A DNA stretch of 64,000 nt from Antedon mediterranea (Eukaryota; Echinodermata; Crinoidea; Comatulida; Antedonidae), in NCBI RefSeq assembly GCF_964355755.1, contig NC_092679.1:20698932-20762931 (forward strand), given 5' to 3'. Below the pieces are notes generated by a model, which was given only the letters and a program-made list of their open reading frames with translations, was not told where the DNA came from and did no database searches. Position 1 is the stretch's first letter. Each line of letters opens with the position of its first letter. Positions 2,918-64,000 of this stretch are shown piece by piece. The translations under genes were made by a program, and so were the position numbers.

Positions 2918-4135
2918 ATATTTCAGATATTAAATTTCCCAAAGACAATTTGCATTTCTTCAAACATATATGTCTTCTATTACCACAGCTCTGGTTTCCT
3001 GAAGAACATTGAATATTTAACTGTAAAAAATGGACAATTCTCAACTTTGTCTGTAAATTAAAATAACACATGAAAGTGGTCGAAAGGGGTAGCATTTGTG
3101 GTCAGACTTAAGCCCCATTGATACTTCCACAAATGTTGGTCCACAAAGTTTCACATTCAATGCATGTAGTGATTGTGCGTCGCAAAAATGACATGAATTG
3201 ATTGTAGAACAATCTGGATCAAAATGCATGCTAGTGTCAATGCGGAATTACACCAATTGTGGTATACAATATTTGAATTCTCTTATAGAATAACAGTAGA
3301 TGTAGTACATTACTTGCTTTTTGACATGGTAATTTGTTGTGTAAAGTGAAAGTTTAAATAATAGGAATTATTTTAATCTAAAAATTAATTTTATATTTTT
3401 CTTCTTAGGAGAGCTATTTTAATTTGTATTTAACTTGCAATTTAGTATTACTATTAGTTGGAATGTGATTTGTGAAAGGCTATAGAGATGGTTGAAGTTG
3501 GGAAACAAAATTTAGTTTTTGCCATAGCTTTTGTTTTAATTTTAAAATATACAGTTTAGAAGACATTTGAGTAATTATAAATTTGCCAAAGTTTGACCAT
3601 GGACGTATAAATTAATTATTATTATTAATCAATTTATAGGTCCAAGGTTTGACTGTCTCAAAAGAAATCTTTATCCGAGATTTTTCTTTACAATTATATT
3701 TGCTTTGATTTCTTGAAAATTACAATTTGTTCAAGCCAGTAGCTACATGGTGAGGATAGGGGTATCAAAGGTCAAACAAACATCTTTTTTCCCCGAGTGC
3801 CCTTTTCACCACCAGTGGACTGAAAGTGATGATAGTAAATATGCTTAGCTAATTACTCTAGTCTAGCTAATATTTGTGGATCCTGCTGTAAATATCCTTC
3901 CTAAGGGATTGTTATGTAATTTAATTATGCCTTAAATTAAAAGCAGTTATTTCTATCATGATGTAATGCACAAAAATGTATTTAATATTGAATAGAACTT
4001 TTGTCTAAAAGAAACTGACATGGAATGGTCTGTGATGTTTTTCTAAAGTAGGCATTTTAGTTTTCACGTAATGTACTAATTATAATTCATTGTACAATAC
4101 AATTTTCTTGAATAAATAGTTACATAGTCTGTGCA
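2918..4135 (+). other. YPEL5 3' UTR with polyadenylation signal
   Basis: AT-rich non-coding sequence follows the stop. The first strong AATAAA with T-rich sequence after it is at 4111-4116, giving a 3' UTR of about 1.2 kb. The extent is inferred; there is no transcript evidence here. Confidence 0.5.
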
Positions 4136-4916
4136 AAAATTGCCTTATTTGTTGTGTATATCGTTTTAAAAAATTCGTTTGTAAAAAGTCTAATTAGGGG
4201 TGGCATTATTATCTGTGTTACCTTGTTTTAAATGTATTTCGATTTTAAAGGCTAAAGAATGAATGAATGAAAATGCTAATTTTCAACCCGGAGCTCCCCT
4301 TTAAAAAAATACTCTGATTGTAATTACCAAATTACGACTGGACTGTAATCATAGAAGACTAATGATGATAGCCTGCCCTCTATATAATATTTATCTCGGT
4401 ACTTTTTTTCGCTAGGCCTAGCTAGCTGCAGTTGGTAAGCTAGAATTTCTCATATACTTCTGTTTTATATATTGACGATCACGACAAAACAAATGGTAAA
4501 TGTGGTTTACTGTTCAAGTATACGATAACGTTGATTGTTAATATTATATGATTATGTAATCACTTATATTTACAAATTTGTAGTATAGATAATTATGCGG
4601 ACGAAGGCCATCTCGGTCGTCAGCGGCGTTTGCCTCACTCTTTCGGGTGTCATCCAAGCTGCACGGCTTGTTTGTGCAGGCCTAGGAAAAATACCTTTCA
4701 ATCATCTTCATATCAAATGACGTTTTTAAAAGGTGGTTTTCATTAAGAATTATCATTACCCATAAACAATCTTACTTATTCTTTTTTTAAACATTTATTT
4801 ATTTTTTCTATTTTTTTTCAACAATATTTTACTAATAGTAAATAATACGAGCATGATCCATTCCGGGCATTAGGCCTATAAAAAGTTATTATTTTTCAGA
4901 ATTCTAAGTCAACATT
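4136..4916. other. YPEL5-AP4B1 spacer and AP4B1 5' region
   Basis: Mostly AT-rich. A short GC-richer island at about 4595-4690 (cggacgaaggccatctcgg...) may be the AP4B1 promoter or first non-coding exon. A splice acceptor (tatttttcag) ends at 4899 and begins the exon that holds the AP4B1 start codon. TAGGCCTA octamers recur here. Confidence 0.4.
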
Positions 4917-7900
4917 ATGACGTTTCCACTAGGCGTAGACATTATATCTAAAGATGACCTGCACAAATACAAGTAAGTTTTTTATTTTATTCATTTTTAA
5001 AATTAACTTTCATTCAATAGAGTAGGCCTACTAATAATTGATAGGCTTATCCTTTTTATATAACATAATAAACATACTGTAATAAATGTTTTTAAATTAT
5101 ATTTTTCTTTCGAATTTAGTGAACTTCTCAATGATCCGGAGGTGATAGCAGATCCTAACCAACTGCAGCAGTTACTTCAAAACTTGTTGATGAAGATGAC
5201 CTCTGGGATGGACGTTTCACAAGTGTTTATTAGTGTCATCAAGGTGATCTTGTACCCATTTATACTCCTGTGTTGTGTGGGAATTTCCCAGTTGCCATCA
5301 AACCTTATGATGGAATGGTGATGTTTCTAATGAGAACTTGAAACCATTTACACTCCTGAATTAGTGAATAAGACAAGCAATGTATGGTCAAAAAGTCACC
5401 TAAAACACACACGCTTATGGCTTATAATGCAGGTGTCATATGTGTCACAGAATTTGGCCATGAATCTGGATATTATAGATGCAGTACTGAGAATCAGCAA
5501 GAGTATTTTTTGTTAACTTCTTGTTTATGCATATCCATTATTAGTTTTGGCTTTGATATTAGTAAAAAGATAAATATTTTGGCACATTGGCATTTCATAC
5601 GTAAACTAATTGAGCTTGTAAACATCGAAAAGCCTCGAAATAACTACAGACTTAGGGCAAGTCTAATCCATTATATATTTTCAGGTCTGTGGAAGTTCCA
5701 ATATGGTCATCAAAAAACTAGCCTATCTCTACCTAAGCCATTACGCTGAGGAGAAATCAGACCTAGCCCTGTTGGTGGTGAACACTTTACTGCGAGACTG
5801 CAAACATCCGAATCCAATGATAAGAGGCTTAGCTTTAAGGACATTTTCCTCTATAAGGTAAAATAAGGCAATCTAACAACAGGACGTTGAGATCTGGAGA
5901 TCAAAGGTTTTATCTGTGGCTGCGACACGATCAGCTCCACGTCCCTTAACAGACACTGCGCACTACAGAGACTACCTACATTATACAGTATTTTTGTTAT
6001 TTATCGCAGCCAGACATAAGATCAAAGGACTGTTATAAGTTCCTATCATGACTTGGCGAGCTTAGTGTCCTGTTAAATTGCCTTGGAAAAACTGTTTTTA
6101 AATTAACCAATATGGTGGCACAATTGTTTTCCTTTTTACCTTGTATTAAAATTACATATGAATAACTCTTTCAATGTTTGTTTTTTTAGCGTGGTAGAAT
6201 TCCTGGAGTACTCCATGCAACCATGTTTGGATGGTCTCACCGATAAAAGCGCTTACGTACGGCGAGTCGCTGTTAACACTTGTGTTAAGCTACACAGACA
6301 GCACCCACAATTCACCCAAGGTATCTATCTCAGTGCCTGCAATAACATTAGTCAGTCAGTAGTATGTCCTGAAAAAAAAATTTTGTTGTATGTTTTTTCT
6401 AGTAATTAATAAGACAATAGCCTAGAGGAAAAGGTCAAGAAACTACCCTGCTTCAATTTTTTTAACTTTTTATTTTTTTTCAGATAACGGTATAGTTGAT
6501 ACGTTATACGCTATGATACGCGATAAGGATTCCATTGTGGTTATCAATTGCCTTATGGGATTGGAAGAAATATTGAGAATGGAAGGAGGAATAGTCATCA
6601 ATAAGAAAATTGCTTATTTCTTACTAAACAGGTTGGTGTAATATTTTCTACTAAAAGAAGAAGAAAATAAAAAAAACACTTACAGACAGACCTCTTTTTC
6701 AAGCTTTCCCTCCAATTTTCTGAAGCTCTATCTGCAATATCAAACTAGTGTGATGTGCCCAAATATGGTAGTAATATGCCCAAATATGGTAGTGATATGA
6801 CATCATGATGTCCATATATACACTACCATATTTGGGCACAATTTTATCACATAAAGTTTGATAGTGTAGACAGAGTCTAACATCCTGCCTGTGTGAAGCA
6901 ATACAGCATTAATACTAAATACAGATAGATAACATTTAAAACATTAACTTTATTAGGTTGAAAGAGTTCTCGGAATGGGGTCAAAGCCTCTTATTTAACC
7001 TTCTCCTGAAATACAAAGTGGAAAATGAAGATGAAATCATAGATATTTTAGTAAGTATTTAGTTTTATATATTTGTTGACCTAAATATGCAGTTTTCATC
7101 TAGTTTTGTTCTTTGGCATTATCTGGTATTAACTCTATCCAAAGTTCACAATTTCTTGATAACTCTTTTCAATGCTGGCATTGTTTTACCCTTTTTTAAT
7201 ATCTGCCTTCTCATTTTGTCCTCTGACGGCGCCATTTTTTCACTCCTTATTCTCTGTTTTTCCACTAATATTTTTCAGAATCTGAGTGACTCATACTTAA
7301 AACATCCCAATTCTGCAGTCAGTCTGGCAGCGGTTAACCTGATGCTACAAATGACCTCTGACCTGCATCTCAGAGAAGATGTCTACAAGAGAGTAAGAGG
7401 TACAAATGTCTTTATTCCAAATTAGGAGCTTTTGATTTGCGATGTTAAGCTCGGTCTACACTATCAAAAAGGTGTGATGTGCCCAAATATGGTAGTGATA
7501 TGACATCATCATGTCCATATATGGGCACACCACATTTGTTACATAAAATTTGATAGTGTAGACAGAGCTTTAGGGATCTAGAAACTTTTTAAGTTAATTT
7601 ATTGGAAATGCTTCCTCACTCACAATTCCTTGACACAGTTATGGAATATGGTCATAGGTCAATATGGTCATAGGTCATTGCAAATCGAAAGCTCTCTTGT
7701 AAACAAATATGACAGTGACCTTAATTCAGATTTTTGATTTTATATTATTATTTTGTTTATTCCAGGTCCACTGTTAAATGTATTAACAAATGGTAGTTCG
7801 CATGAGCTGGTTTTTGCTGCCCTCTGTCACATTCAGTGGATTCTGACATTTTCTCCAAAACTTTTTACGAAACACTACAAAAAGTTCTATTGTAGGTTAG

Positions 7901-13267: not shown

Positions 13268-16200
13268 TCATATTGTAAAATCCATCAAATAAAATATAGA
13301 GATTAAACCGATCCAACAGCTTACCAAATTCGTCACTGCTTTGTTTTCCATATTGTCGATTTCTGGTGAAAAACTGGGGCGATGCTATAAAATAAGTAAT
13401 AGGCATGATGATCTTGTATAGCGCTTAAGCTCTCTACGGTATCAAACTTTTTATGTGACAACAAAGTGTGATGTGCCCATATATGGACATGATCACTACC
13501 ATATTTGGGCATATCCCTACCACATTAGGGCACATCACTTTTTTGTCAAACTAGTTTGATACCATAGACAGAACTTTACATTATTACACCGGCCAATGGA
13601 TCAATTAATAGTGGAGTCTTATATCACGCCATTACAAGACAAGTGAAGTTTACCTATAGCCTGTATACCGATTTTCAATAGTTTATAAGTGTTAATTGAA
13701 TTGTTTGACTTTTAAAAAATATCCTTTTTTTTTGGTCAGTTTATCATATTAAATGGATTATATTGTAAATGGACATTCCTCGCATGAAGTTATAAAATAA
13801 CTCGGAAGAAATGTACAGTATCATTTCAATTCATCCCGCGGTTTCAAAACGATTGGTAGGCCTAAAGTTTTGAAGAAATAATAGTGCCTACCTGATTTGC
13901 TAATATGGTCGTATGGTCTGCACTGTCCATCGCGACTGTACATGCCCTCTGTGTCGAATCAAATACCATACCGTGACCACAGCCCTCCGCGTAGTATGTG
14001 AAACTAGTGACGTGCGCCTTACCATACATGTTTCTGTTCATCTGAAGGGCGCGAGGATTTCTTTTTCGCCTGTACCGGACCACAGGCGGTGAACCCATTT
14101 GCTGTTTTTCAACAAGTCTAAAAAATTGATAACAATATTTGTTTTAAATACCGTGTAACCAGGGAGCAACTCCCTGGTGTAACATTATTTTTGTTTAATA
14201 TACTGTACAGTGTATAACAAGCTACACATTACAAAGGAGGCTACCGGTGAAGTGTTCAATTCAAAGAACGCTATTATCAACAATATGAGCAATATTGAGG
14301 ACATAATAAGTACAAATAGTTAATATAAAAATGCAAATATTTATTTAGATAAATATAAATCGTACCTGTATATTGCCGTGACAGTATACAAAACGCGATC
14401 AGCAGTCAGTGTGACGTGATTGAATTTAGAAATATGCAAATTAGTTTCGTCGTCATAGACGCGATTCAAACTTGAAAGAACTCCTGCCTCCTCGTGAAGC
14501 CTATAGCTGTCGTAATTCCCGCCAACAAACAACTGAAAGTTTGGATCGATGTAGTGGACCTTGCGATGATCAGGCTGCGCTGCTACACATCCCTAACATA
14601 TTCAGTACAAAAGAACATTGTAGTTCCACAATGTAAAGCGATATATTAAGTTTTGTAAAGTCAACCCTCCTAATTTCAAGTGATTTATACTTAAAAGTAA
14701 TGTTTAAGATATACTGAACTAATCGAGGGACTAAGAGCAAGAGGTGAATTTATTACGATAATTTCCGACCAAATGGAGAGGAACAGAAAAGTGTGTAGGG
14801 AAGTTAGGGTGGGTTGGAAGATCATTTATCGCAAAGTACATTATCAGTAGGTCTTATTGCGCTTCAATTTAATTGTCACTTTATTAATTCAGAGTTGCAG
14901 AGCTGAAGGAAGGGATGGAGCCCACCATATTATAGGCCTACTAACGATTGATAACACCTCATTACCATTTTATCGCTTTCTTGACCAAAGCAGGTCAACA
15001 GTAACATCAATTGAAGGTAGTACATTGTACGTAACCATATTGGAGAATACTGGACCTGAAATGAGATGCGGTCACCCTCTGCCACTCTAACCCTCTCTGT
15101 GTATCGTGTACCTACGACAAGAACAACGATTACATTTAGAACATTTTGATGAAAGTTCTGGTGAGACCTATTACGTAATTAATTAGACTTAATCCATACG
15201 AACTTGAAACACCTTATAGTAGAACTCCTTCACTAGTGGGAACTAAGCTTTAATAGATATGTCCGTGAAAAGGGGTTGGCCATAAACGTGCTAAAACAAC
15301 TCACTCTTGTTCATTTCGCAAAGGAGAGGTTGTACTTGATTCATTAATTAAAATGACATTGTAACAAATATACACACAAACATAGTAATGATCTAAAGCT
15401 ATTTCTACACTATCAAACTAGTTTGACAAAAAAAATGTGATGTACCCAAATATGGTAGTGATATGCCCAAATATGGTAGTGATATGAAATCATCATGTCC
15501 ATATATGAGCACATCACATGTTTGTGTCACATAAAGTTTGATAGTGTAGACAGGGCTTAATTGTATCATGATTCAATACAAGAGACTTACCATGTGGGTA
15601 GAACGGAATTGGTTGATGACCACTGTGTATTGCGACGACATTAAGGGTTACTTCGTCGTACCTTTCGTCTGTCAACGTCAGAGCAGACTGCAGAACAAGA
15701 CTGATGGTGACGTTGCACTTGGCTGTGGCATTCCTCTTGCACGTAGAGACGTCTTCGATGTCTGCACATTCGTGGATGGTGAACGTTGCCACAAGATCAC
15801 CTAGAAACATCAAAACATAAATTGATACCTATAATATAAATGTCAAATTTAGAAATAGATTACTCACACTGCCGTTTCATGGAACAGTCGACGACGGCAT
15901 TCCGTTTAATTTAAAAATGCAGCTTAAAAGGTGAAACATGGATTCTCGACTGCATGTAATAAAAGTTATTGTCTTATCACATCAATATATTTACTGAACC
16001 ATGTTATATGGTAAATGTGAGATTAGGGAAACATTGGGTACAAAATATGTAACTGTTCTTTAACATGAGTTGTCTTATCATAGTTGAAATTTATACATTA
16101 TTGGAAAGAGAGAATGTGTTGACAGTGTGTGGAAAAAGAAGACCACAACTAAGCTTGGTTTCCACTAAGACGCAACGCAAAGCTATCATAAGAGCGATAG

Positions 16201-18834: not shown

Positions 18835-21800
18835 TCATCGACATATATGACACCCAAATAATAGATTCATTTCTTGACGAATCACATCACGCGGCATATG
18901 TAACTTATTTGGCGTATAAAATGATAAGTTCATGTCCCAGACATCTAGAAAGACTGCACCCGATCCCTCAAAAACCTTATATAAAAGTATATTATATTCA
19001 CTAAATATATAATCATTTCCGAACATGTAAAAATATATGCTTTTATGATTGCGAGGGTGGGATCCCTTTACGGCGACAGTTGCCTCAGGGCACCGTTTTA
19101 GAAAATCTACGACGGCGTGTTTGATTCCGTAAAGACGGTCGAGGTAGCTTTGCTCTGTCCATTGGCCGTAATGCGCCCAAGGGCCGACTACTATGACACG
19201 GTTACAGTCCGACATTTCTCTGATAAGGTCGCCTTCAAACTGCATGTTTGCGAATGGGATGATACGTTGTTCTGAAAGGATGCAAAGTGGATGGAAATTA
19301 AAAGTGATATCAATGTCATAGTCCTCTACACGATGAAACATCTGAAGAGCGTTTTCATATCTGTCGCCGTTGTATATATTAACAAGTTCATGAAACCACT
19401 GTCGAAAAGTTGAATCACCCAACAAGGATATGTTTGTGTGCCGCATACAGGATTTTAAATCTTGGTTGATATTTTTAAACGAGTTGTTGCATTGATATGA
19501 TTTCCATTCGTTGTTCATCCAAACCCCATCAGACTGCACGTCTTCAGAATCAATAACGCGCTCTTGCATCGTTTCGTGTCCTGGATCTGAAACAGTCAAC
19601 ATGATTTTATATTAGTTTCGAAATATTAGCATTGCCTATTCAACTATTATAACGAACGTCGCACATTTGAAATATTATAGGTGTATTGTCCACCAAAAAA
19701 TGAAGATTAATAAAATCAGACTTTGAATATGCCATTTTATAGTTTTAATAGAATAGAAATAGAAAAAACTATCGAAAAAAATAATGATTTTACTTATAAA
19801 ATTAAAAAATAGACGGTTAAATTCAATTAAAAACCCATTGGCAGCCAATTTGCTTTAAATTACTGGGTTTTTTTTCAGATAGATAATTTTGTTTTCGATA
19901 AAAATTTTGGTCAAAGTGATTAACTATTATGCGACATTAAAATGGAATTTCAACAATTTTTTTAATGATTTTTTCAGGTGACAATAGGCCTATATCTTTT
20001 ATTTTTTATAGAAAAAAGAACACTAATACATCTGATTGAACGTACCTCCTAAATATATTTCATAATCTTTGACTACATAAAACTCCAGATTTTTTCTAAA
20101 AAATGTAACAAAAACTTATTATTATTTTGGTGGATTAAACATTGTGTTGTATTGTGGATATGGCTGACTGGATAAATACAATTGAGCAGATTATTGGATG
20201 TATCCATAAGATCAATAAATAAGAGAATTATATAAATGTGCATATATACATATATTATTATATTTATAGAACTATAATAAAAGTGGGACGAACCCACACA
20301 AGACAAAAAAAAAGATGTATCCATAAGATTCCGGGTTCGAATCTTGGTTAGGGCGACTTTTGTGTTTAAGTTCTTCCTAATTTTCACCATTTAAAAACTA
20401 TAAATGTATCACTGGGCTGTTTGGAATTTCTCCTATATACTTTCAAATATCATATATACAGTACCTAGGCCTATATATAAATAAGAAATCCTGTGACGTT
20501 TTGCATAGGTTAAATTAAAAAACGTATAAGGTCTTTTGTATATTGGATAATTATGTAGGCCCAGATATAGGCTACTATTTAAACAAAAGTAAGAATTGCA
20601 ATATGAATATTAACGAATATTAATATTTTCATGAGAATAAATAAACCATTATATTATTACCCTTTGAATAGTTCAGTATTGTTTCCTAACAAAAGATTTG
20701 CTTCGTTTAGAATGTCTTCACCAGAACCACGGTATGAAACTAAATTATTACATAAACAAGTTTTCGGTTTTTCACAGGTTAACGTTGTGTTACCAAGCGC
20801 TTCGACATTTGTATATAAACACACATTATAAATATTCTCTCTATTACTATGTTTTTCTATGTAACATAACGTATATTCTTCAGAATCTGTGTTACATTCG
20901 TAAATTCCGCTCCAAAATATCCTCTTTTCTTTTTTCCACATCTTTTCCCGTATCCACGTTACTGTATCAGAATGATGTACTCTTAAGATAGAGAGGTTAG
21001 CTGGGCCAGCCCACGCATGCGCAAAATGAAACGAGTATGTGCCATTGTCGTGGTCTATCACTTTACCCGCGGTGCTAAAATTTATGTTATCAACATTCAC
21101 GCTACTTAAAGTTGGATAAAAGAAGTCTCCTCCGTCCGAATATTTAATTATTTTCTCAGAAACGTAAGTGTCTAGTCGGATTGATATAACATTTCCAGAT
21201 TGCAAAGACTTTTTTAAATACGATACATAAAATAATTCGTTTTCCAGTGTTTGGAATATTCCTGTTCTTTCGTCGTCTGATTCAAAACAATTTACAGTTG
21301 ATCTTGTCTGATTGTCTTCTAGTTTCCACTCAGTACAGTTTTCTATCCACGTTGAATAAATTAGGTTTTCATCCGGGACATACACGTATGATCTAAATAT
21401 AGAGTATTTAGTTTTCTACAAAATAAAAGCAAATTAAGTGAAAGTTTACCGACAGAACTTAGAAATAACAGTTATTCTTCCTGGTATGTTTGCTAAATAC
21501 AACTAAACGAAAAATATACATGTATATATATATATATATAAATCAAAGAGCTGCATAGGCAGGATATAGAAAAAAATCAAGATCAAATAAGTTAAAACTG
21601 CCTCAATATAGATTTATTTTAACGACATGTTTCGGGCATAGCCCATCATCAGGTGAAAAGAATTGTAACAAAGGATAACATATATAAGTCACAAAATTAA
21701 AGATGTTAACAAACAAAAGGCATAGTTATAAAGGCACGCCTCCAAAAGCTATGGTGTACAAAGCAGGAATGGTTGCTTATAAAGCAGGAAATTTAAAACA

Positions 21801-49400: not shown

Positions 49401-52400
49401 ACTATATTTATCCTATCTATCTATATGTACTTTATGTTATACTTTAACTCCTCAATGAGACTTATGGGGCATAAGGCTGTGGTTCTCCAGTCTCCATACA
49501 TCTATTGTCTGTGTCCAGTAAATGTGTCAGGCAAACCACTAACATGGTTAAATATCAATATTAAAGTAAGAAATTATATTGCTATACTATATCTACTGTA
49601 CTGATGTATTCCATGTTTCCATGGTGACTACTACGGCATCATCTCTGCCTCTTGCTAGCATCCAAGTCTTTACAAACACTAACATGGTGTGGATATATTT
49701 ATATGCATTTGTACGATTAATAAATAAATATAATTGGAAATAAACTAACTTGTTGGCAGCGGGATGTTTGGCTGCTCCAATAACAAATAGTGTCTTTATA
49801 ACTTTGTAGCAAGCAACTTGTACTTGGTCAACTGAAGTCAAATAAAAAGAAAATGTCATACTTTTATTATTATCAAAGAGGTACACATAGATAGGTAGGA
49901 AATATTTAGATGTTGAATAGAAAAAGTAATTTAAATTCATCATTTGGTTTGAAATATTTTAGAGAGATACACTAATTTTCTTTCTTAAGTGCTAAATTAC
50001 CAAAACTGGTCATATTGAGAGCTAAAGCTCTGTCTACACTATCAAACTTTATGTGAAAAAAATTTGATGAGCCCATATATGGACATGATGATGTCATATC
50101 ACTACTATATTTAAGCATATCACTACTATATTTGGGCACATCACACTTTTTCACTAGTTTGATAGTGTAGACAGGCTTTACAAACACTATGTTTAACAGC
50201 AGTGTTTAATTAAAAGTTTAATATTTGCCCAGATGCAGAATTATACATAAATAACACATACGTAGTAACTCTTCACCAAACTTGAATTTCCCAATATGTT
50301 TGAAGAGACTTGTCAACATGGGCAGCAGTACCCCGGGCACGTACTTCATTATCAACCCTTCTTTGAAGTCTGGTGGTTTCACATGACTAAAGTAACCAGA
50401 TTTAACATTCGCTTGTGTACTTTCTAAGTCGTCCGCCGCGTTGCAGAAGAAAACAAGAAGTGCGTTCTTTACTGAACCAGATCCATGCTTGGTGATTGAT
50501 CTATAAAACAAATTTAATTATTAAACAGTCATTCATTTTATTTTCGAACAGAAATTTAATGTCAAATTAGCATAATGTAATCAGTAAGATTTAGAACTAC
50601 TGTAATACCTTCCATCTATGGCAGTGGCTATCACTTCCAAACAACAGACTGTACAGTTTAGGTCTTGAGCTAAAAATAATTTACAAATAAAAAATGAAAA
50701 AATTAGGTAAGGTATTAAAAGAAGGCATTAATTTTGGTAAATAAAAGTGTTCAAGATTTACGTTTTTTTTTATTTCAACAGAAAATGAATTACCTTGAAA
50801 GAGGTTTATCTTCTGACGAACAAGATGAGATAATTTGCAGAACAAGCTGAAAAGAATTAAAAAGAAAGAGTAACAACAAAAACTGAAAATGTTTCAAAAC
50901 TGATCAACTAAAACAACCAACTTAAAATATGTGAATTTAACTGAATTTATTTTCTATATTTTTTGTTCTCACAGCTTTCAATCAAATTTGCAAGATTACC
51001 TGGCAACCATTTCCTTTTCTCTGTGCGATGCACTTCCAAATCGACTTGCTTGCAATGAACTTGGACTGGATACAAAATAACAACAGTAGGCCTCAAAGTA
51101 TTTCTCAATCAACGGAAGGACAACCTATGATAAAAACAAACATAAAAATAGATGGAAATTATGGTTTGGGGTGAAAGATTGCTTTAGGAAAATACTGTCG
51201 AGGAGAGTAACACAAACTTGTCTGCTAACCATTAATATGAAGAACAAAGATGATGCTAAAAAAATGATAATGATGATGGTAATTCTACAGTAATACAATT
51301 AGATAAACAATATATAATATTAAAAACATACCCTAACAAAAAATTTGTAACTTCTTTCTTCCATTTCTCGTTTCTTAAAACCTGAGAAAAAAATCAATTT
51401 TCAAGTCAACTTTAACTCGACATCTAAAAGGATTATTTCAATGTATTTCTTAGTCACAGTGTACACACTTCTCCATAATAAGTAATGATAAAATGGTGGA
51501 TACTGACAAATGGTAGTCTTACCTGGTCGAAGGTTAGCCTGGGCCTTGTCAACATAGTGAATTAACTTCTCCAGAAGATTAAAAGCAAAGCGTTTCTCAA
51601 TGGTGTTGCTGACATGCGACAGTCTGTCTTGTGAGTCCCCAGTGCCATTCCTAACAAAATAGTAAGTACACAGTAATCTACTACTCTACTGTAAAGCTCT
51701 GTCTACACTATCAAACTAGTGTGATGTGCCCAAATATGGCAGTGATATGACATCATCATGTCCATATATGGGCACATTTTTTTGTCACAAAAAGTTTGAT
51801 AGTGTGGACAGAGCTTTAGAAAGGCTTGAATAGAGAAATAAAAGCAAACAATTCATAGTTAATCAAACTAGAAAATGTATCTAAATATAAGTCTATAACT
51901 TTCCATGACATTATTAGTGGTACTTTTCCATGCAATTCTTGAACATAAACATTACATTTCAGTTCTGAGTGTTCTACACTTAAGAGGTGCTGCTGTATCT
52001 CATTGTTAGCAAGATAAATATTCCACAAAAAAATAAGCACATTTATATAATAATCACAAGGATACAAAAACAAAACTAAATTGGAAATATAAAAATGGAA
52101 AACAGTGCAGGACAAGGTAGAGGATTTGGTTTATTAGTAAAGAACAACCAAACAAACACAAAGAAAAAGGAACGATTTTCAAAATTCAAGGAAGATATAA
52201 TTGTCAAACATCTAGGGTGCAGAACTATAAAGTGTTAATGATCAGAAGTTGTTAATTGGTAATTATGTGCTGGTCTTTTAATTACCTCTCATTTTCATCT
52301 GCTTCTTTGCTACAGTAACAAAAAAGTGTTAAATTATAGTCATTTTGTATTAAAACATACTATATTTGGACAAATATCAACTGATATCGGTGTAATTAAA

Positions 52401-55400: not shown

Positions 55401-58400
55401 GAATAAACCATCACCTATCACACACATATTAGCGTTAATTTTATCTGAGTACACATTAAAAGGACTACATCAAAAAAACATAAAGTACTGCATCATTTAT
55501 TATTTGGGATCTTATTTTTGAATAACTAATAAAATTCCTGTAATTTACCCTATCTGCAAGGGCATCAAACAAGCCTGTGAATAACATCATAGTGAGCCGT
55601 TTCTCTTCATCATTGGCGGCGCCGTAACTACCCCAACCACCATGACTTCCATAGTAGTCAACACAGCGCTCATAATGCAACGTTAAAATCTACAAGACAA
55701 AGATATTTAGAATGGAGAATTGTTTTCTATTTCCACAACCAACTGATATTCTGCTAATAAATTAGTTAAAATAAAGTATGTAAATCTATGTAAACCGACA
55801 TTGGAGTTTTCAATTTGTGACAAACTTGATTATAGAAATTACTGTAGTTACACCAACTAAATTTGCTAATATGGAAGCATTGAAATGTACTTTCTCACTC
55901 ATTTGTTTAACAGTTCTAGTGGATTCTAGGATCAACAAGTGACACATGTGTAGGTTCTACATCTTTGCAATTTGAAAGCTCTCTATTCTGATACCAAGGC
56001 TGGATAAACAAGTTTATCTTACCTTCAAGGCAACATATGTATGTTCTAGTAATAATGGAACATCAACTGTCAGCTTTCGGAGTAGTCGCTGCATCATGGA
56101 TGGCCGCAGACTCCTAAAAAAAAATAATTTATATATATACTTTTTATTGCTCTAGAGAAAGCAATTAATAAGCTAATACCCAAGGATGAAATATATTCCT
56201 AATAGTATGAAAGGGAAATGTACTTACCCTGTGAGAGCTACTAGAAAATCTGCAATGGTATCTCTCTGGCCTTTTGTGAGTGACCGACATTTGGACAGAC
56301 GATAGACTGTGTTCATGGTGGAGTCCAGTAGCGAGATGTTGTGACCTGCATTCTCAAACATGTGAGCATGTCGGGTCAGCAGTGGTAGGACAGAGTTGCA
56401 CAGGTAGCGGTTCAAGGCTAGAGCCATGTCATGGTCGTGAGTATTAGGCTAGCAACATAAATCAAAAATATAATGTAAAATTGACACACAAAAGCTTATA
56501 CATTACATATATTACTAAGAGGAAGTGCACCTGATATAGTATGCAAATTAGAATATCATTTTCAGCACTATAGCTGTTTCCTGTTGTTGGTATGCTTTGA
56601 ATGAAGTAGTACCCTACCATTTTATTCTTTATCATGACAATAGCAATTTATTGCTGTTTTACTTTATCGTTTTGATTTAGCTTTTTGCTTATTTTATTTT
56701 GCATAAGATCTCCATTGAGATCCAGCCACTGATACCCACAGCATTGATCTATGAAGTAGTAATAATTGTTATATACTGTTTAGAAATCCTTTATGATAAA
56801 GTTATTATTGTTGATACTTACAGTGTCCATAGTCATGGCAGCTCTTAAGTCTGGTAGAAAACCTACTTCAAGAAGTCTAAAGAACATCTCCTGGTCACTG
56901 ATGCCATACACCCTCTCCATGAAAAGCAACATTGCTTCCTTGTGGGTTGGTGTCAAGCCTTTTAAATCTGCTCCTAATGGCTTTCCAAGTGTCTCTGAAA
57001 AAGTGGATTAACACAAAGCTGTAGTTTTAATAGTGGAGTAGTAGAGCTGTAGCTTGGTGGTTCTTGTCAAATGTGCTTGACTTCCAATCCCAAGATCTAG
57101 TGTTGTCATAGTGACAGGGTTGTCTCAAATAAAACTTACTGTTAGATGACTGTGTATGGTACAATATAATAGATAGAGTATGGTGCTTTACTTAATTACT
57201 TTTGGTTGCAATACAAAAAGCATAACATGGCAAACTTACCATCTTTCTTCTCATATACTTTGCTTGGTGATGGTAGATTGAACTTTAGTGAAAGAACGCC
57301 CTCTAGATCGTCAAGAGCGACTAAGCTTCTAAGGATGGCTCTCATTCTCTGTGACTCTGACTTGCCGTGGCTCAAGACCTGTTTATCTGGAGCACACCTT
57401 CCAAGGAGATCAATCAACATGGCGTAGAACGTTAGCACTGCACCGCCCATGTCAACGTCATCTTCATCTTCTGGCCTAAGAAAAATATAAAAAGTTTAAT
57501 ATAAATTTGATTGTATTGACTAGGGTAAAAACATGTTCACCGTTAATTCAAAACCAGGTCAACATGAGCCTAAATCAGAGAAACAAAATAATTGCCTAAT
57601 ATGTAGTGGAGCTGTAGCTTGGTGCAATTAAACACATCATACAACTTACACTGGTTCTGGGTTTTCCTCAGTAACAATCTTAGGCAGGCTCTGAACTCCT
57701 GGTGGGAAGGCCTCATCTAAATTCTCAGACATCTCAATAGCATCCTTCATAGCTGCTAGCAACCCTTTGCCTTCAGATCGTAAAGCTGGGCCTAGACATT
57801 CTGGATGGCGGATTAGTAGGCGCACCACAAGGTTGGCATTCTCTTCAACAGTTTCGCCTGTTTTCAAATTAACATCACAGCATTAGAACATGTATTACAT
57901 TATTAAAGTTTTTGAATGGATAATGTAGATGTAGATGCTTCTAAGTCGGATCAAACCATAGTTTTTGCTAAGGTGAACATTTACTTACCACAGCCAAAAC
58001 ATTTAGGTCATTGCTATAAAATATACAAATCTTAAAAAACTACAATTTAAACAAGAAATAGAATCATACCATTAACCCATACAGCATGCTTCATAAAATC
58101 AAGATACCGTTCACCATCTAACGGATCCCATCCAATGTTCGGTTTCCCCAGTGACATCATTCTAGCGTTGTTCTTCACACCACACTTTGATAGATATTTG
58201 ATGACTTTCTCTAAATGTTGTCCTCGCAAGGCGAGTGCAAGTTCATTGTTGTCCATCAGTGACGCAGCAGCTACATCAAGAGGACATGAACCTCTTAGGG
58301 ATGGTAGAGCTTTAAAAGAAAAACAAAGTTTTAGAAAATGGACATTCATACAAGTTATAACTACAGTACATTAATACATTTTTTTTTCCAACAAAAATGT

Positions 58401-61400
58401 CCGGGTACTATATTATTCCTGTCCAAATAGTGTCTAATTTTTAACCGTTAATTATTTTTATCAAATTATAAAATTTACTATCTTATTAAATTTAAGAGAA
58501 GAAAATGAATACAAATCTTTATGTAATCTATCTGGAAAATTACCTGGTCTGTAGTTTTTTGGATACTGTGTATGTATTTTTAAACAATTATAATAATAAT
58601 GAATTGCTTGTTTTCTTAATTATCTGTTTCATAATTCATAATAAATGGTATATAATTATTACTCTACCTTCATTCTACAACACTTCATGCACAATTTAAT
58701 TTCATTATCATAAATATACATGCATAACATATCACTAGTTATGTCATAACTAACTATAACTTTTTGTCACAATTTATAACAAAAATGGGTAAGTATAAAA
58801 ACATTCAAAACCTCAACAAATGCTTGTTTTTGCATTTTGTTTAATTTTTTTAGAACCCTAACCCCATGTTTAGGGGACACTTTCCAGTAAAATAAACGAG
58901 GGGAAATATAATGTTTTGATACTTGGGTATTGAAGGTGTCCCTTTATCAGGTGTTCGACTGTATCTAAATCATTTTACTATGGTTTTATATGTGATTTTC
59001 ATACTTACAAAGGCCCATGTAACCGTGAGATAGAAGGTAGCCGAGGTTATCAAACATAGATTTCTGGTTCTGCGTGCTAGTACGACAAAAATAGCAGAGG
59101 AATCTACAACAGCCAGCAGTCAGATCACGAGAAAACCCGACCTAAGACACATCAAACGCATGCAAACAAAAAGGCAAAAAAGGTTAAAGGTCATGCTCTA
59201 AGGTTAAAGGAATACAGTATTCATATTAAAATGTAAATTTTGAATAGACAAGGAAAAGTGGTAGGTGTTTTATATTTTAAATTATGCTTCATAATAGTAT
59301 TTGATTACCGATACAATAATATATATGCGAACCCTAACCCCATGGGAATCAATGGCTTATACATTTATTTTAAAACTTGTCATCGACCTTAAATTCAGTA
59401 AACCCACTTTAAAACACTCCCTAACTTGTTGAAATAAAGAAAGAGAAGACACAGTTTGTTTTTAAACAAACTCACATGTTAAAAGAATACTATAAATAAC
59501 TTGATTAAAAAAAGTTTTATAAAATAAAATATACTGTACTAATAGAAATAATACTAAACATTGTTAATAAAAACGGGTACCAAAGTTAATTTAAACACTG
59601 CACTTGTAAAAACAAAATACTGTATCCAAAACCGTAAGATTATTCTGCAATATTTACTGTACACTCAGTAAGAGACTGTAATCTTGATATTAACCAAGCA
59701 AAACTATTTACGCCTGTCTTAATTGTACTTTACCAAAGTAACTGTTTAACAGAACCAATTTTAAACTAAAAAGCACACACTCTATAAATTTAGTAATAAA
59801 AACACTCCTCAGAAATCAATCACACTGTAATAAGGATATAGCAAGTGCATTATGGCTGTGCATTAGCAGCCGTGTGACCACTTACAAAGTCCAATATAAC
59901 TAATGTCAAGAAGATAGTCTAGGCCCCCAAACAGAGCAATCTGGCACTGCATCGCTATGCGGCAGAAGTAGCTTAGGAACCTGGAACAGGCAGCTATAAC
60001 CTCATGGTTAAAATTCATGTCCTTTTGAAAAAATCATTCAAATTTTATATATTAATATTTTCTTTTTTTTAGAAATCAATATGGCACTTTAAAGATTACT
60101 TTAATTAAATTTAATTAAGAACTTAGGGTCTCATTGCATAGAACAAATATTACCTGTGATTTTGTGGTGCTGGCCATACCACTTAGCTGGTTGCCTTGGT
60201 TGGACGTGTTCATGTCACCACTACTTAGTTGGACAGAAGTCTGGTGCTTCTCCAAAACATTCACCATAACGTTCATGACTGTCTCGTGTACGGACAGCGC
60301 CCTCATTAAATCAGGATGTTGGTAGAATACTTTATTGTCGGTCATCTCCCTAAAAGTACAACAAAATTGATCCAATTAAGCAAACCTAAGAGAATCAAGG
60401 GTATGATAAATAGTTATGGTTTTATAGGTCTCCAGAATGAGACGCCATGAGTTTGCCAGATAATCTTATGCCTTGTACTTCAGATGGGACATTAAGTTGG
60501 TGATCAAATACAGTTAGAGAACAATATCTAGTGCTTGAGATACATGATTGTTTAGGAGTCTCCATACGGCATATGTTTGCAATGCTATCTTCTATGTCTT
60601 TACTATTAGCCACTACTTGCCTTGTCCTTCAAATGGGACATTAAGCTGCTGGTACAAATTAGAACTAAATATTAAACAAACCATAAATGTTTAATGAGAG
60701 CCTCTTCCTCTACTTGTCCCATCTGAATGGTCAGCAATGACCGAATGTGACCTAATGATGTCAAGAGGCTTACAATGCCATCCCTCTGATCACTACTCAC
60801 AACATATGTCTTGTACAAAGCTTTACACAACTGCAAAAGAAAACAATATAAGAATAATTATTGTACAGGCAACTCTTCTCAAGCCAATATTTTAAATCGT
60901 TTAAAAGTTGATTTACTATTCAAAACGCAATTTCAAAACCATGCTTTGTGAAACAGCAAAATAGTGTCTAAAAAAGTTATGGCAGATCCTGTACAACTAT
61001 GACTCATCCTAAAAAACTAAATCCAACAAATATGGTAGCCTGGAAAAGATTTGGTAGACTCTAAACAACTATGAATTACCCCAAACAACTATGGCTGGCA
61101 TTGGCAAACTTTGAAAGAATCAGAATAACATTTAATAAAATTAAATTGCAATCACTTAGTTACCTCTCCGACTCCATCATATTGCCGATACATCAGTCTG
61201 AACATTTCTCTGACAAGAATTGGATCTTCTATATGCTGCTCTTGGGCCCAGTTGACCATAGTTCCAGAGATTAAGAATGATAGCGAGTCTTTAAAAAATA
61301 TTAATAGTATTACAGACAAAAGAATGAAATAAAATGATATTTCAAATCAATAGGTCAAATAAAGCTCCTTCGACACTATCAAACTTTATGTGACAAAAAA

Positions 61401-64000
61401 AATGTGATGTGCCCATATATGGGTATGATGATGTCATATTTAGGGATATCACTACCATAATTGGACACATCACACTAGTTTGACAGTGTAGACAGAGCTT
61501 AAGAATACATACAAATAATAGAAAGAGAGAACTTGACTAACCTCCAGAGAATTTGTCTGTTTGTTTATCTTCTGCCTCTTTCTTAGTTCCTTTCAACCAC
61601 TGCAGGAATTGGCCAATCCATGAGATCTCATCACTGTCTGCTTCTTTCTCCTCGTGCACTCCACAATGTGAAATCAAGTTGTCATGGAACGCTGTCAGAA
61701 CCTCTCGGAGGTCATCCCGACACGGGCATATGCTAAGTTCTTCTTCAGTTTTAAAGCTCAGAAGCATTCTCATCTGTGAAAATAAAAATATAAAAGAGGT
61801 TAGTACTAACAGGCACGAATGTGCGATACTCGGGTACAGCAAAAGAAGCTGTAATGACGTCATAAGTTTTTTTTAGTTTTTTTAGTTATATTACAGTGTA
61901 AAATAAGTCAAGCAGTTTGAGGATTTCAAATATTTAATCAACCAGTGGTATGGCATTATGGTAAGAAAATAGGTCTAGTATGCAAGAGGAATGGGTTCGT
62001 TTAACTGTATTGCCTCATTCTTCAGATGAAACGTAAAGCCATTGGTCCAGTACAATGCACATATGAAAGGTGAAGAGCTTGGTACTAACAGGCACGAATG
62101 TGCGATACTCGGGTACAGCAAAAGAAGCTGTAATGACGTCATAAGACGGGATGTGACTCCACATACACATCAATCACCTCGCTACCAAATACGGCTATAC
62201 GGTACCATCTTTGAGACGTCATATGGCTGCATCCAGTTTGAAATTAAAAAATCAGGCTCTATAGCTTTGAGGTAGTATAGTGTAGTATATTCATGCAAAA
62301 TAAGGGAGGAGTAGTACTTTATAAATCGCACTTTTTACTCAATAGTGTCGAATGGAAGAGGAGAAGATAAGAGAGTCCTAGACTTGGGGTACCCCAAGTA
62401 AAAAGTAGGGGATCATCTCTCAGTGTGCTTATTATAGTAAGAGCTGCACGGTGACATCCTTAGTCTTTAGAATGTCATATGTTCAAATCAATTGATATAT
62501 ACTCACTTGCTCAATTGGAGTTGATCTGAATTCTTTGGTTTTCTTTGCTGTAACGATGGGAGGTAGGTCAGCTGACTGCACTTCTTCGAACCTCCTCTCT
62601 TGATCCTGAAAACAATTTTATAGTTAGTAATACATATAATGAAAAATTAAACTAAATAATTCACAAGAAAGAACACCTCTAAATAATAATGATATTTATT
62701 TGTCCACCTATTAATTTTATTGAAACAGGAGTTTTCAAATTGAATATACACTCACACATATACATAAATTAAAAAAACAAAAAAATTCAAAATTACTTAC
62801 TGCCTGACATTCCGCAACAAAGTCGTCAGAAAAGTTTACGATGGCTTCAACCCGGTGGCGCAACTGACTGTCGCACAGGTGTTGCAAGAGATAGCACATC
62901 TCCAGCTTCACTGGTTCATCAAGATGCATCTGAAGAAGACCAATGTGTGTGCTGACACCTGTAGGAAACATGCATATTAGAAATATAAATGTTTTAATAT
63001 AGTACTAGTACCTGAATGTATGAGCTAAACATGCATGATAGATATTGGTAGGCCTGCAGGGGGACATAATTCTGCAAATGTAAAACATGTACTATAACCT
63101 TATACTACATGTATCGTTGTGACCAAGAATATGCGAATATGAGACGTTGGTCTTACCTTGCATATAAGAATCATCAAAGGTCGTGGGATCAATCAAGATA
63201 AGTAACTGCTTCAAATCGTCATCATCAATCTCTCCCATTACCAGTAAACCATCACATAGCCTTAACAATGGCCTAAAATAAATGTGTCACTAAAAAATTG
63301 GCAAAAGTTTTCAGAATAAAAATGAATGAATTCATAAATCTAAAAGATAAGGGTCTAGGATATTGATAATGGGTTTGTAATACCTGCTTTTGAAATGGAT
63401 TACTGAAATCTTTCCTGTGTTAAGTCTTGTTATTTGTTATTGGAGTGAGTGAGTGGCCGAGCGGTTAAGACAGTGGAACCGTAATTACGTAGCCATAACA
63501 TCGGCAGGGGTTCGAGGCTCACTCACTCCATGGTTCTGGTGGTAGAACGAGTCTTCTCGGATAAGGACTATAAACCGTAGGTCCAGTGTACACATCTAGC
63601 TCGTGTGCACTTTAAAGAACCTAGTACATCTTTCGAGACGAGTAGGGGGTTACCCCGGTGTATTAGTACATCATAGCCACTAATCACCAACTGGGCCCTC
63701 TGGGAGACCCAGAGGTTACCCAGTATAAATATAAATTTCAATTCAATTTCAATCAACAATTCAGACAATATTTCTATAGGTATAGCACTGTATAGTTATC
63801 TTTGATCACCTGAAATTCTATATTCAGAAATTGTTCATTTGAGAGGTTAAAAACAAAAGGTTAAAATATGTACTTACACAAACAGATTATTATAGCTGCC
63901 ACCAATAGGGTCCCTAGATTGCGCAGTACCATGTGAGACCGACTCGGTGAGGCATTGTATAACGTGCTTCTTTAGCAAAGATCTGTTGAATTGTGGTGGA
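28413..64000 (-). CDS. RYR: Ryanodine receptor, C-terminal ~3,127 residues (5' part outside window)
   Basis: Minus-strand gene whose last ~60% is in the window; the start lies beyond 64000. About 82 exons were traced, all GT-AG. Using one of the two alternative exons, their lengths sum to a whole number of codons ending in TGA at 28413-28415. The order matches vertebrate RyR: central helical region, RyR repeats 3 and 4 (52797-55075), core solenoid, RIH-associated domain, EF-hand pair, divergent cytosolic linker, six membrane helices and C-terminal zinc domain. The product is the homotetrameric Ca2+-release channel of endoplasmic/sarcoplasmic reticulum. The filter is GGGIG, flanked by ADEIE. 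Only one RyR is expected in most invertebrates, so no paralogue number is given. Exon coordinates are in the segment entries. Confidence 0.97.
28830..28938. repeat. ~15-bp minisatellite in a RyR intron
   Basis: About seven imperfect units of ttcaatctcagag / attcaatctcaga between exons 28614-28665 and 29146-29246. Confidence 0.85.
29333..29466 (+). repeat. Family F dispersed repeat copy 3
   Basis: Begins gaagggttagtattacccaa with aagctctgc after it: the stem is GGGT/ACCC in place of GGGC/GCCC. In a RyR intron. Confidence 0.8.
30699..30838 (+). repeat. MITE family A copy 9
   Basis: Diverged ends (aaagctctgtctataataac, agttagtgttgacagcactt) in the intron just before the RyR filter exon. Confidence 0.8.
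32434..32550 (+). repeat. 5S rRNA-derived fragment (SINE3-like)
   Basis: ataccagctatactgcgttg, then aaacaccgatcattgaagtt, aagtaacgttgagcccggtt, attggagaccgtctagaaat and gtggtgggtgctgtatat follow 5S rRNA in order. There are a deletion in the ccggttctcgtccgatc part and many substitutions. It is antisense to RyR in the intron between 32371 and 32722. It is not a functional 5S gene; 5S-headed SINEs are the likeliest source. Confidence 0.8.
33198..33362 (+). repeat. MITE family A copy 10
   Basis: Complete, with clean ends taagctctgtctacactatc and gatagtgtagacagagcttt; one of the longest copies because the catatcactaccata core is duplicated. In a RyR intron. Confidence 0.9.
33411..36674 (-). other. 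RyR segment 7: U-motif and divergent linker
   Basis: Exons 36540-36674, 35975-36054, 35759-35857, 35537-35622, 35089-35283, 34420-34566, 33969-34149, 33728-33789, 33411-33507. The first three are conserved ([60 protein letters not shown]). From 35622 to 33411 the sequence is the divergent region: low-complexity, basic/Ser/Pro-rich ([27 protein letters not shown]), ending in an acidic run ([10 protein letters not shown]) just before the first membrane helix. Confidence 0.93.
36132..36455. repeat. Element bounded by a perfect 26-bp inverted repeat
   Basis: tataaaattctttatatcaa (36132-36157, ending accaat) is exactly the reverse complement of 36430-36455. The interior contains gacaataaagatttatctta, a tail typical of retroposed elements. 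In the RyR intron between 36540 and 36054. Confidence 0.75.
36752..36905 (+). repeat. Family F dispersed repeat copy 4
   Basis: Begins aatgaagaagggttatttac with ccaaaagctctgc after it, then the full body to cagtaatttgcctt. In the RyR intron between exons 37020-37123 and 36540-36674. Confidence 0.8.
37020..37311 (-). other. RyR EF-hand pair
   Basis: Two exons, 37232-37311 and 37020-37123. Loop 1 is [12 protein letters not shown] and loop 2 is [12 protein letters not shown]. Both have acidic or Asn residues at positions 1, 3 and 5, Gly at 6, a hydrophobic residue at 8 and Glu at 12. Vertebrate RyR loops at this site are degenerate. The domain follows the [10 protein letters not shown] helix and precedes [14 protein letters not shown]. 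Confidence 0.92.
39921..39941 (-). other. RyR 21-nt microexon
   Basis: atgaaaatggtcctatagca plus g, between tcaacacag and gtaggg. Phase 1 in and phase 1 out, encoding (G/D)ENGPIA. Skipping keeps the frame between 40871-40944 and 39125-39205. It lies just before the RIH-associated domain and is probably alternatively used. Confidence 0.68.
41005..41165 (+). pseudogene. LINE 3' fragment in a RyR intron
   Basis: gactggataaaccaaataaa, acaataacaaaccatcctgc and ggaaacaaatcgtggaaagt match the fragment at 26455-26560. Very short and frame-broken. Confidence 0.7.
41546..42558. mobile_element. Non-autonomous DNA transposon, 1,013 bp
   Basis: cagggccgtagccagg at 41546 faces cctggctacgggcctg ending at 42558 (15 of 16 paired). 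The word gtaag directly flanks both ends (41541-41545, 42559-42563), a 5-bp target-site duplication. Subterminal G- and C-rich runs (ggggggttcg, cccccctgg) are also inverted. A 126-codon open frame inside has no transposase features. It sits in the RyR intron between 42635 and 41368. Confidence 0.88.
44268..44461. repeat. GC-rich palindromic MITE
   Basis: aagggcctttcacacctg faces caggtgtgaaaggccctt exactly, and the complementarity continues inward (cggcacggttccggtccggc / gccggaccggaaccgtgccg). The GC content contrasts sharply with the AT-rich intron. It splits a copy of the gtgtccc repeat (44230-44575). Confidence 0.9.
45018..45156 (+). repeat. MITE family A copy 11
   Basis: Begins taaagttctgtctacactatc and ends atagtgtagatagagcatta. 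In the intron before RyR exon 44001-44138. Confidence 0.85.
46003..46172 (+). repeat. MITE family A copy 12, with insertion
   Basis: The left end ctaaatctctgtctacatca is followed by a short foreign tract (gggaagactactttttgctg) before aacactatcaaactagttgg. The right end (cacataaagtttacag) is truncated. Confidence 0.75.
46196..46420. repeat. MITE family D-like remnant
   Basis: Two copies of ctagtgggaaccaagctt (46304 and 46401) with acgcaagtgac and ttgataattaatcgctt between them, related to 16150-16268. Degraded. Confidence 0.55.
48585..49749. other. RyR intron without recognised content
   Basis: 1.16 kb between exons 49750-49831 and 48436-48584. AT-rich, with no repeat family I recognise and no candidate exon. 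Confidence 0.4.
50025..50180 (+). repeat. MITE family A copy 13
   Basis: taaagctctgtctacactatc to gatagtgtagacaggcttta, with the catatcactactata core duplicated. In a RyR intron. Confidence 0.88.
51693..51815 (+). repeat. MITE family A copy 14
   Basis: aaagctctgtctacactatc to gatagtgtggacagagcttt; the inner gacaaaaaa segment of the left arm is deleted. In the intron after the 24-nt microexon region. Confidence 0.88.
52286..52309 (-). other. RyR 24-nt microexon
   Basis: caaagaagcagatgaaaatg plus agag, flanked by tgttactgtag and gtaatt. Phase 2 in and phase 2 out: it adds eight residues (SKEADENE, the first codon shared) without changing frame. Skipping joins AG to the next exon at 51650 in frame. 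Probably a cassette exon. Confidence 0.75.
52500..52690 (+). repeat. SINE fragment
   Basis: gctgggttcaattcccgata (B-box-like) and actcagctgtaaaaggacac with ctggttgaaaaatac are typical tRNA-SINE body words. Degraded; in a RyR intron. Confidence 0.55.
52797..55075 (-). other. RyR segment 3: RyR repeats 3 and 4
   Basis: Exons 54912-55075, 54536-54614, 54235-54324, 53697-53825 (repeat 3) and 53372-53449, 53130-53205, 52797-52920 (repeat 4). Repeat 3 has [18 protein letters not shown] and LLRPYRNL; repeat 4 has [14 protein letters not shown] and [10 protein letters not shown]. The linker between them contains RRRLSKTS, at the position of the vertebrate RyR2 phosphorylation loop (Ser2808 region), and fits a PKA-type RRxS consensus. 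The two domains share the W...K fold of the family. Confidence 0.94.
54720..54895. repeat. Dispersed repeat, partner at 55905
   Basis: gttttagcagattctaggtc and aggttctagatcatcataaa plus ttgcaagctgttattctt align with 55905-55990. A third diverged copy may be at 7615-7700. Unidentified. Confidence 0.5.
55905..55995. repeat. Dispersed repeat, partner of 54720
   Basis: gttctagtggattctaggat and aggttctacatctttgcaat plus ttgaaagctctctattct. Same family as 54720-54895, direct orientation. Confidence 0.5.
56648..56748 (+). repeat. Family F dispersed repeat copy 5, 5' truncated
   Basis: Only the body is present (tgctgttttactttatcgtt to gatacccacagcattg). In a RyR intron. Confidence 0.75.
59009..59141 (-). 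other. RyR alternative exon b (proximal/3' copy)
   Basis: 133 nt, phase 0 in and phase 1 out, the same phases as the 59886-60021 exon. It encodes [20 protein letters not shown] then [20 protein letters not shown] and YMGL, closer to vertebrate RyR. The intron between the two copies is ~744 bp. Using both or neither shifts the frame of the following exon (58070-58309), so exactly one must be chosen per transcript. Confidence 0.9.
59886..60021 (-). other. RyR alternative exon a (distal/5' copy)
   Basis: 136 nt, phase 0 in and phase 1 out. It encodes [20 protein letters not shown] followed by [20 protein letters not shown] and SYIGL. It is homologous to the exon at 59009-59141, with 18 identities in 35 aligned residues by eye. 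Clean acceptor (ttttcaaaag) and donor (tttgtaag). It is the more diverged of the two relative to vertebrate RyR, where this position reads [10 protein letters not shown]. Confidence 0.88.
60420..60660. repeat. Duplicated SINE-like 3' segment
   Basis: cttgtacttcagatgggaca with ttaagttgg (60472) and cttgtccttcaaatgggaca with ttaagctgc (60618) are two copies of a word common in invertebrate SINE/LINE bodies. A diverged third copy is near 62015 (cattcttcagatgaaacgta). Confidence 0.6.
61362..61501 (+). repeat. MITE family A copy 15
   Basis: aaagctccttcgacactatc to gacagtgtagacagagctta. In the intron between RyR exons 61542-61773 and 61164-61288. Confidence 0.88.
61798..62152 (+). repeat. Near-perfect ~62-bp direct duplication
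   Basis: The tract tactaacaggcacgaatgtg through ctgtaatgacgtcataag occurs at about 61804-61866 and again at about 62084-62146, essentially identical. SINE-like sequence lies between. In a RyR intron. Confidence 0.85.
63445..63770 (+). mobile_element. tRNA-headed SINE (Ser/Leu-type head)
   Basis: gagtgagtggccgagcggtt with aagaca is an A box and aggggttcgaggctcac a B box. gagtgag and ctcactc can pair like an acceptor stem. The anticodon arm is broken, so it is not a live tRNA gene. The body ctttaaagaacctagtacat with cttcgagacgagtaggggg and ttaccccggtgtatt is a conserved SINE domain in marine invertebrates. In the RyR intron before the window edge. Confidence 0.85.

Follow-up and report, generated by a model that had tools for sequence, protein, structure and literature searches.

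Probably mutually exclusive tandem exons encode one stretch of the bridging solenoid in the ryanodine receptor gene of the crinoid Antedon mediterranea

The Ryanodine Receptor Locus and Its Surroundings

The window analyzed here, i.e., the whole stretch of 64,000 nucleotides from the genome of Antedon mediterranea (contig NC_092679.1, positions 20,698,932 to 20,762,931), contains a large part of a ryanodine receptor (RyR) gene, which is encoded on the minus strand, entering the window from beyond position 64000 and continuing to 31 kb or further. Ten open frames were scanned for protein families, and five of them gave RyR-type matches (E ≤ 0.01) while the other five remained without match. These matches include RYDR_Jsol at 62.7-63.0 kb (minus strand, E 1.9e-22), the Pfam family RYDR_ITPR in the frame at 58050-58370 (minus strand, E 7.9e-10) and RR_TM4-6 at 32.6-33.0 kb (minus strand, E 2.6e-8). 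Further frames could be placed by alignment to the vertebrate protein, the one at 48 kb at RyR1 3185-3222 and the one at 31 kb at RyR1 4835-4882; a comparison of the frame at 32.6 kb with solved protein chains returned no match. The order of the RyR exons in the window fits a single gene. When the 354-Mb genome was searched for the RyR repeat family (PF02026), four matches were obtained, all at the present locus, and the frames 73488-73177 and 74357-74145, which form the RyR repeat pair, coincide with PF02026 matches. Judged from the matches of this family, one RyR locus is seen in the genome.

Neighboring genes in the window include one for a Yippee-family protein at 2537-2914 on the plus strand (PF03226, E 2.5e-12), while an NXPE-type protein is represented by frames at 18838-21415 on the minus strand (PF24536, E 2.3e-42; PF06312, Neurexophilin, E 3.2e-15). 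In the genome, the families COX1, GH6, and chitin_bind_4 returned no match; of 14 control genomes, 8 matched COX1 and none matched the other two families, whose absence is therefore a weak hint at most. Repeats are found in several parts of the region. A tandem array with a unit of approximately 100 bp occupies about 550-1900 of the window and contains many near-identical frames on both strands, and a dispersed repeat with similar frames is present in many copies, also on both strands (e.g., 7448-7588, 15408-15572, and 49975-50205). Upstream of the window, tandem arrays lie at region positions 104756-105374 and 106461-107114, one built around TGTACCCCATGGGCAA with a period of 20 nt, the other built around TATGTCTATGGACAGC. 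Within the RyR gene, an exact local repeat of 64 nt occurs at 61803 and 62082, 279 nt apart and next to the RyR exon at 61.5-61.9 kb, and another repeat, at 57044 and 57609, falls outside the RyR exon situated between its copies.

Two Homologous Exons in Tandem

Between two constant exons of the RyR gene, two homologous exons are located side by side on the minus strand. The upstream constant exon (60154-60349, minus strand, 196 nt), delimited by its splice sites and frame, ends in phase 0. It is followed by exon A, the more divergent copy (59886-60021, minus strand, 136 nt), and, after an intron of 744 nt with GT-AG borders (59142-59885, minus strand), by exon B, the copy closer to vertebrate RyRs (59009-59141, minus strand, 133 nt); according to their translations, both copies are entered in phase 0 and left in phase 1. 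The downstream constant exon (58070-58309, minus strand) begins in phase 1, and its donor, GTATGA after 58070, was read from the sequence. All three introns around the pair start with GT and end with AG, the donors being GTAATA, GTAAGT, and GTAAGT, and exons A and B both end in a T followed by GTAAGT. The lengths, phases, splice sites, and coordinates that an initial sequence-only reading had given for this pair were thereby confirmed.

The same reading had described the copies as about half identical, which agrees with 20 of 44 identical amino acids and 78 of 132 identical nucleotides. By codon position, identical nucleotides amount to 31, 28, and 19 of 44 for the first, second and third position, respectively. 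BLASTP of A against B gave an E-value of 5e-14, which applies to that single comparison, while in a search of the 354-Mb genome (E ≤ 10) each copy found two matches only, namely itself and its twin, the latter with E 2.5e-6 and 2.4e-6. As the genome holds no matches beyond self and twin at this threshold, a similarity of A and B arising by chance or from a dispersed repeat was rejected.

To widen the control, all minus-strand frames of at least 25 amino acids from a region of 114 kb (1296 frames) were compared with one another, yielding 134 frame pairs within 6 kb of each other at E ≤ 1. Eight pairs score above the A/B pair, and these, judged by eye, resemble dispersed or tandem repeats. With respect to further exon pairs in the RyR gene, the RyR repeat pair is the only other one recognizable as RyR coding sequence among the best 60 of the 134 frame pairs, a comparison that weak or short pairs would escape.

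Splicing in silico revealed that the RyR frame stays open with exon A alone or with exon B alone. If A and B are spliced together a stop follows after CRVFS, and if neither is included a stop follows after LYHP, so that the proposed breakage of the frame by joint use or joint loss of the copies holds. (The final codon of the computed isoforms takes two intron bases, since the downstream exon ends at 58070.)

Position in the Channel Protein

Exon A aligns to RyR1 2227-2265 (best E 3.8e-6) and exon B to RyR2 2191-2228 (E 2.4e-12) as well as to RyR1 2228-2265. When spliced to their neighboring exons, both isoforms align colinearly to solved RyRs, the one containing B with E 3.6e-57 and the one containing A with E 2.2e-52: residues 3-33 of the spliced query, which belong to the upstream constant exon, align to RyR2 2149-2179, and the downstream constant exon is colinear with RyR2 up to 2309. 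The pair thus corresponds to residues 2227-2265 of RyR1 (rabbit) and 2190-2228 of RyR2 in the solved structures, which replaces the position of about residue 2480 given in the sequence-only reading.

The bridging solenoid comprises residues 2145-3613, and two variants of human RYR1, p.Cys2233Arg and p.Arg2241*, are listed within it and within MH/CCD hotspot 2 in the table of the cited study (PMC6182665). By alignment, both sites fall within the segment exchanged between A and B. Cysteines are present at 2233 and 2237 in vertebrates and in B, while copy A has serine. In AlphaFold2 models, each isolated exon forms one long helix (mean pLDDT 87.6 for A and 81.2 for B); such models fit a helical segment, but they are hardly informative about this segment within the channel and show nothing on differences between the isoforms.

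Both Copies Are Constrained

Between A and B we calculated a dN of 0.42 and a dS of 2.51, a dS near saturation that makes dN/dS a rough measure. Copy A matches RyR1 at 20 and copy B at 24 of 38 residues. Among 32 sites at which RyR1 and RyR2 are identical, the vertebrate residue is found in B alone at six and in A alone at two, and on these comparisons A is the faster-evolving copy. It could accordingly be asked whether A represents a relic, i.e., a duplicate that is dead or seldom used but still resembles an exon, and both the higher divergence of A and its lack, at the six sites, of a residue common to B and vertebrates would be expected of such a copy. Against this stands a neutral simulation in which B was allowed to decay to the nucleotide divergence between A and B (5000 runs). 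The frame remained open in 849 of the 5000 runs, at least 20 matches to B were kept in only 23, and the 20 matches to RyR1 that are seen in A were reached in none, the neutral mean being 8.4. Furthermore, copy A is roughly as conserved as the neighboring downstream exon when matches to RyR2 are counted (20 of 35 for A and 49 of 81 for the downstream exon; 24 of 35 for B), and it has retained both splice sites, including the GTAAGT donor. On the basis of these selection tests, i.e., the simulation and the conservation relative to the neighboring exon, a dead exon was discarded as the main reading, and we consider it very unlikely that A is a relic. By these sequence comparisons, both copies are under constraint at the protein level as coding sequence.

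Constraint on both copies also bears on another explanation, according to which the pair would serve to switch the gene down, with inclusion of both or neither copy as a regulated route to message decay and not as a source of two proteins. The stops that follow within a few codons in both abnormal forms would suit such a switch, but it would need no second conserved coding copy, and the constraint on A and B argues for functional translation; we regard this explanation as extremely improbable.

Mutually Exclusive Use as the Best Explanation

Exons A and B are very probably tandem-duplicated exons in mutually exclusive use that encode one and the same stretch of the bridging solenoid. This interpretation, already put forward in the sequence-only reading, is well supported by the sequence, because only the use of exactly one copy keeps the frame and because both copies are constrained. 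Depending on the cell or stage, the spliceosome would include either A or B, and messages with both or neither copy would hit an early stop and probably be destroyed. The two resulting channel forms might differ in the packing of the solenoid or in contacts between domains, and hence in gating.

Vertebrates have three RyR genes; in Antedon, with the single RyR locus seen, splicing would be the route to more than one RyR. The segment that would be exchanged belongs to the bridging solenoid and, in human RYR1, to hotspot 2, where disease mutations are placed by the table mentioned above. If both forms are made, splicing would constitute a natural experiment with a portion of the channel that is prone to disease mutations, and the way in which this portion tunes gating would become testable.

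Age of the Duplication

Apart from the six sites and the two sites at which only B or only A has the vertebrate residue, the 32 sites common to RyR1 and RyR2 comprise 17 that are the same in all and seven at which A and B both differ from vertebrates and from each other. A derived residue common to A and B was found at none of the 32 sites. In a simple model, zero shared sites have a probability of p = 0.04 if half of the nine changes in B predate the duplication, and of p = 0.24 if a quarter of them do. In addition, A is no closer to B (20 of 44 identical) than it is to RyR1 (20 of 38). The sites lean toward an old duplication, within a small sample that has vertebrates as its only comparators. 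That the duplication dates back to the split from vertebrates or even further, with an ancestral RyR that had both copies and vertebrates that kept the B type, is a more far-reaching scenario that we consider rather unlikely.

How the Choice Between A and B Might Be Made

Among the mechanisms known to enforce exclusive use, exclusion through a too-short intron is unlikely with 744 nt between A and B. An incompatibility of U2 and U12 splice sites was discarded as well, as none of the donors around the pair (given above), with their AG acceptors, appears U12-like by eye.

Competing RNA pairing between the introns had been suggested earlier as the device that decides between A and B, a proposal that concerns the regulation and leaves the exon pair itself untouched. 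A 16-mer, CATGGGGTTAGGGTTC, is present at 59344-59329 in the intron after A and at 58868-58853 in the intron after B (both on the minus strand), and an exact search of the 354-Mb genome found it in these two places only. A helix of 8 bp can form between UUAGGGUU inside this twin element and GACCCUAA of the upstream intron. However, this helix was equalled or beaten in 59 of 100 and 58 of 100 shuffled introns, and for the two longer introns all 20 of 20 shuffles equalled or beat the best helix; these tests considered ungapped helices and mononucleotide shuffles only. Within those terms, the best helices are no better than those of shuffled sequence, and the suggestion did not gain support. Moreover, local exact repeats of at least 16 nt are found elsewhere in the region, often within tandem arrays, and the copy of the element after B adjoins a dispersed repeat; the surroundings of the copy after A gave no other match. 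Given the frequency of local repeats and the adjoining dispersed repeat, we set the twin element aside as regulatory evidence, and RNA pairing as the deciding mechanism seems very improbable to us. As a separate observation, the 16-mer contains the telomere-like TTAGGG.

RNA-binding proteins that act at one of the copies would be a more probable basis for the choice than RNA pairing. As a lead only, we note an RBFOX-type motif, TGCATG, at 59159-59164 on the minus strand, 17 nt before exon B. TGTGT is located close to it at 59151 and a bare GCAUG begins at 59196; two more TGCATG lie in the intron after B (58724-58719 and 58691-58686, minus strand). The window shows no enrichment of UGCAUG, with 41 occurrences on both strands vs a shuffle mean of 36.6, and of 561 stretches of the same size in the 114-kb region, 27 contain at least three TGCATG on the minus strand. 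Tentatively, an RBFOX protein might repress B through the UGCAUG that precedes it.

Comparison with Known Systems

The architecture of the exon pair seen here is the classical one of mutually exclusive exons, for which muscle myosin heavy chain genes, with their tandem-duplicated exons, are an example. As is general in such systems, the copies are adjacent homologues with equal phases, and their joint use or loss breaks the frame. The pair differs from the myosin heavy chain examples in that it concerns another gene and another protein segment, and in that exclusive use is here predicted from sequence.

With respect to regulation, a parallel is offered by egl-15 of Caenorhabditis elegans, in which RBFOX proteins, together with their partner SUP-12, are reported to repress exon 5B via a UGCAUG situated in the intron upstream of it (PMC3585155; PMC2880598); the wording in PMC3585155 varies, the muscle exon being 5B in one passage and 5A in others. 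As in egl-15 5A/5B, a UGCAUG is found in the intron directly ahead of one member of the pair, close to a GU stretch. Unlike in egl-15, where the repressed acceptor belongs to the upstream exon of the pair, the motif here precedes the downstream exon, and it is the motif itself that suggests the likeness.

An exon pair within a RyR gene has been described in insects, where it is located in the SPRY2 domain, at residues 1135-1165 in Bactrocera dorsalis (PMC3989282) and 1136-1168 in Cnaphalocrocis medinalis (PMC3342285), and is reported for 21 of 26 species (PMC6026295). The insect exons a and b are reported to be used according to stage and body part (PMC3989282; PMC3342285). The statement of the sequence-only reading that the insect alternative exons lie elsewhere was thus borne out by these three papers (SPRY2, approximately 1135-1168). 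The site had also been thought to be possibly undescribed, and among the open full-text papers listed by the searches, no report of a RyR exon pair at RyR1 2227-2265 was found; the pair may be on record elsewhere. Like the insect a/b exons (ASI/IASI), for which either/or use is described, the pair of Antedon consists of two homologous coding exons in one RyR gene, but unlike these it is located at RyR1 2227-2265, and would hence exchange a segment of the bridging solenoid instead of one in SPRY2.
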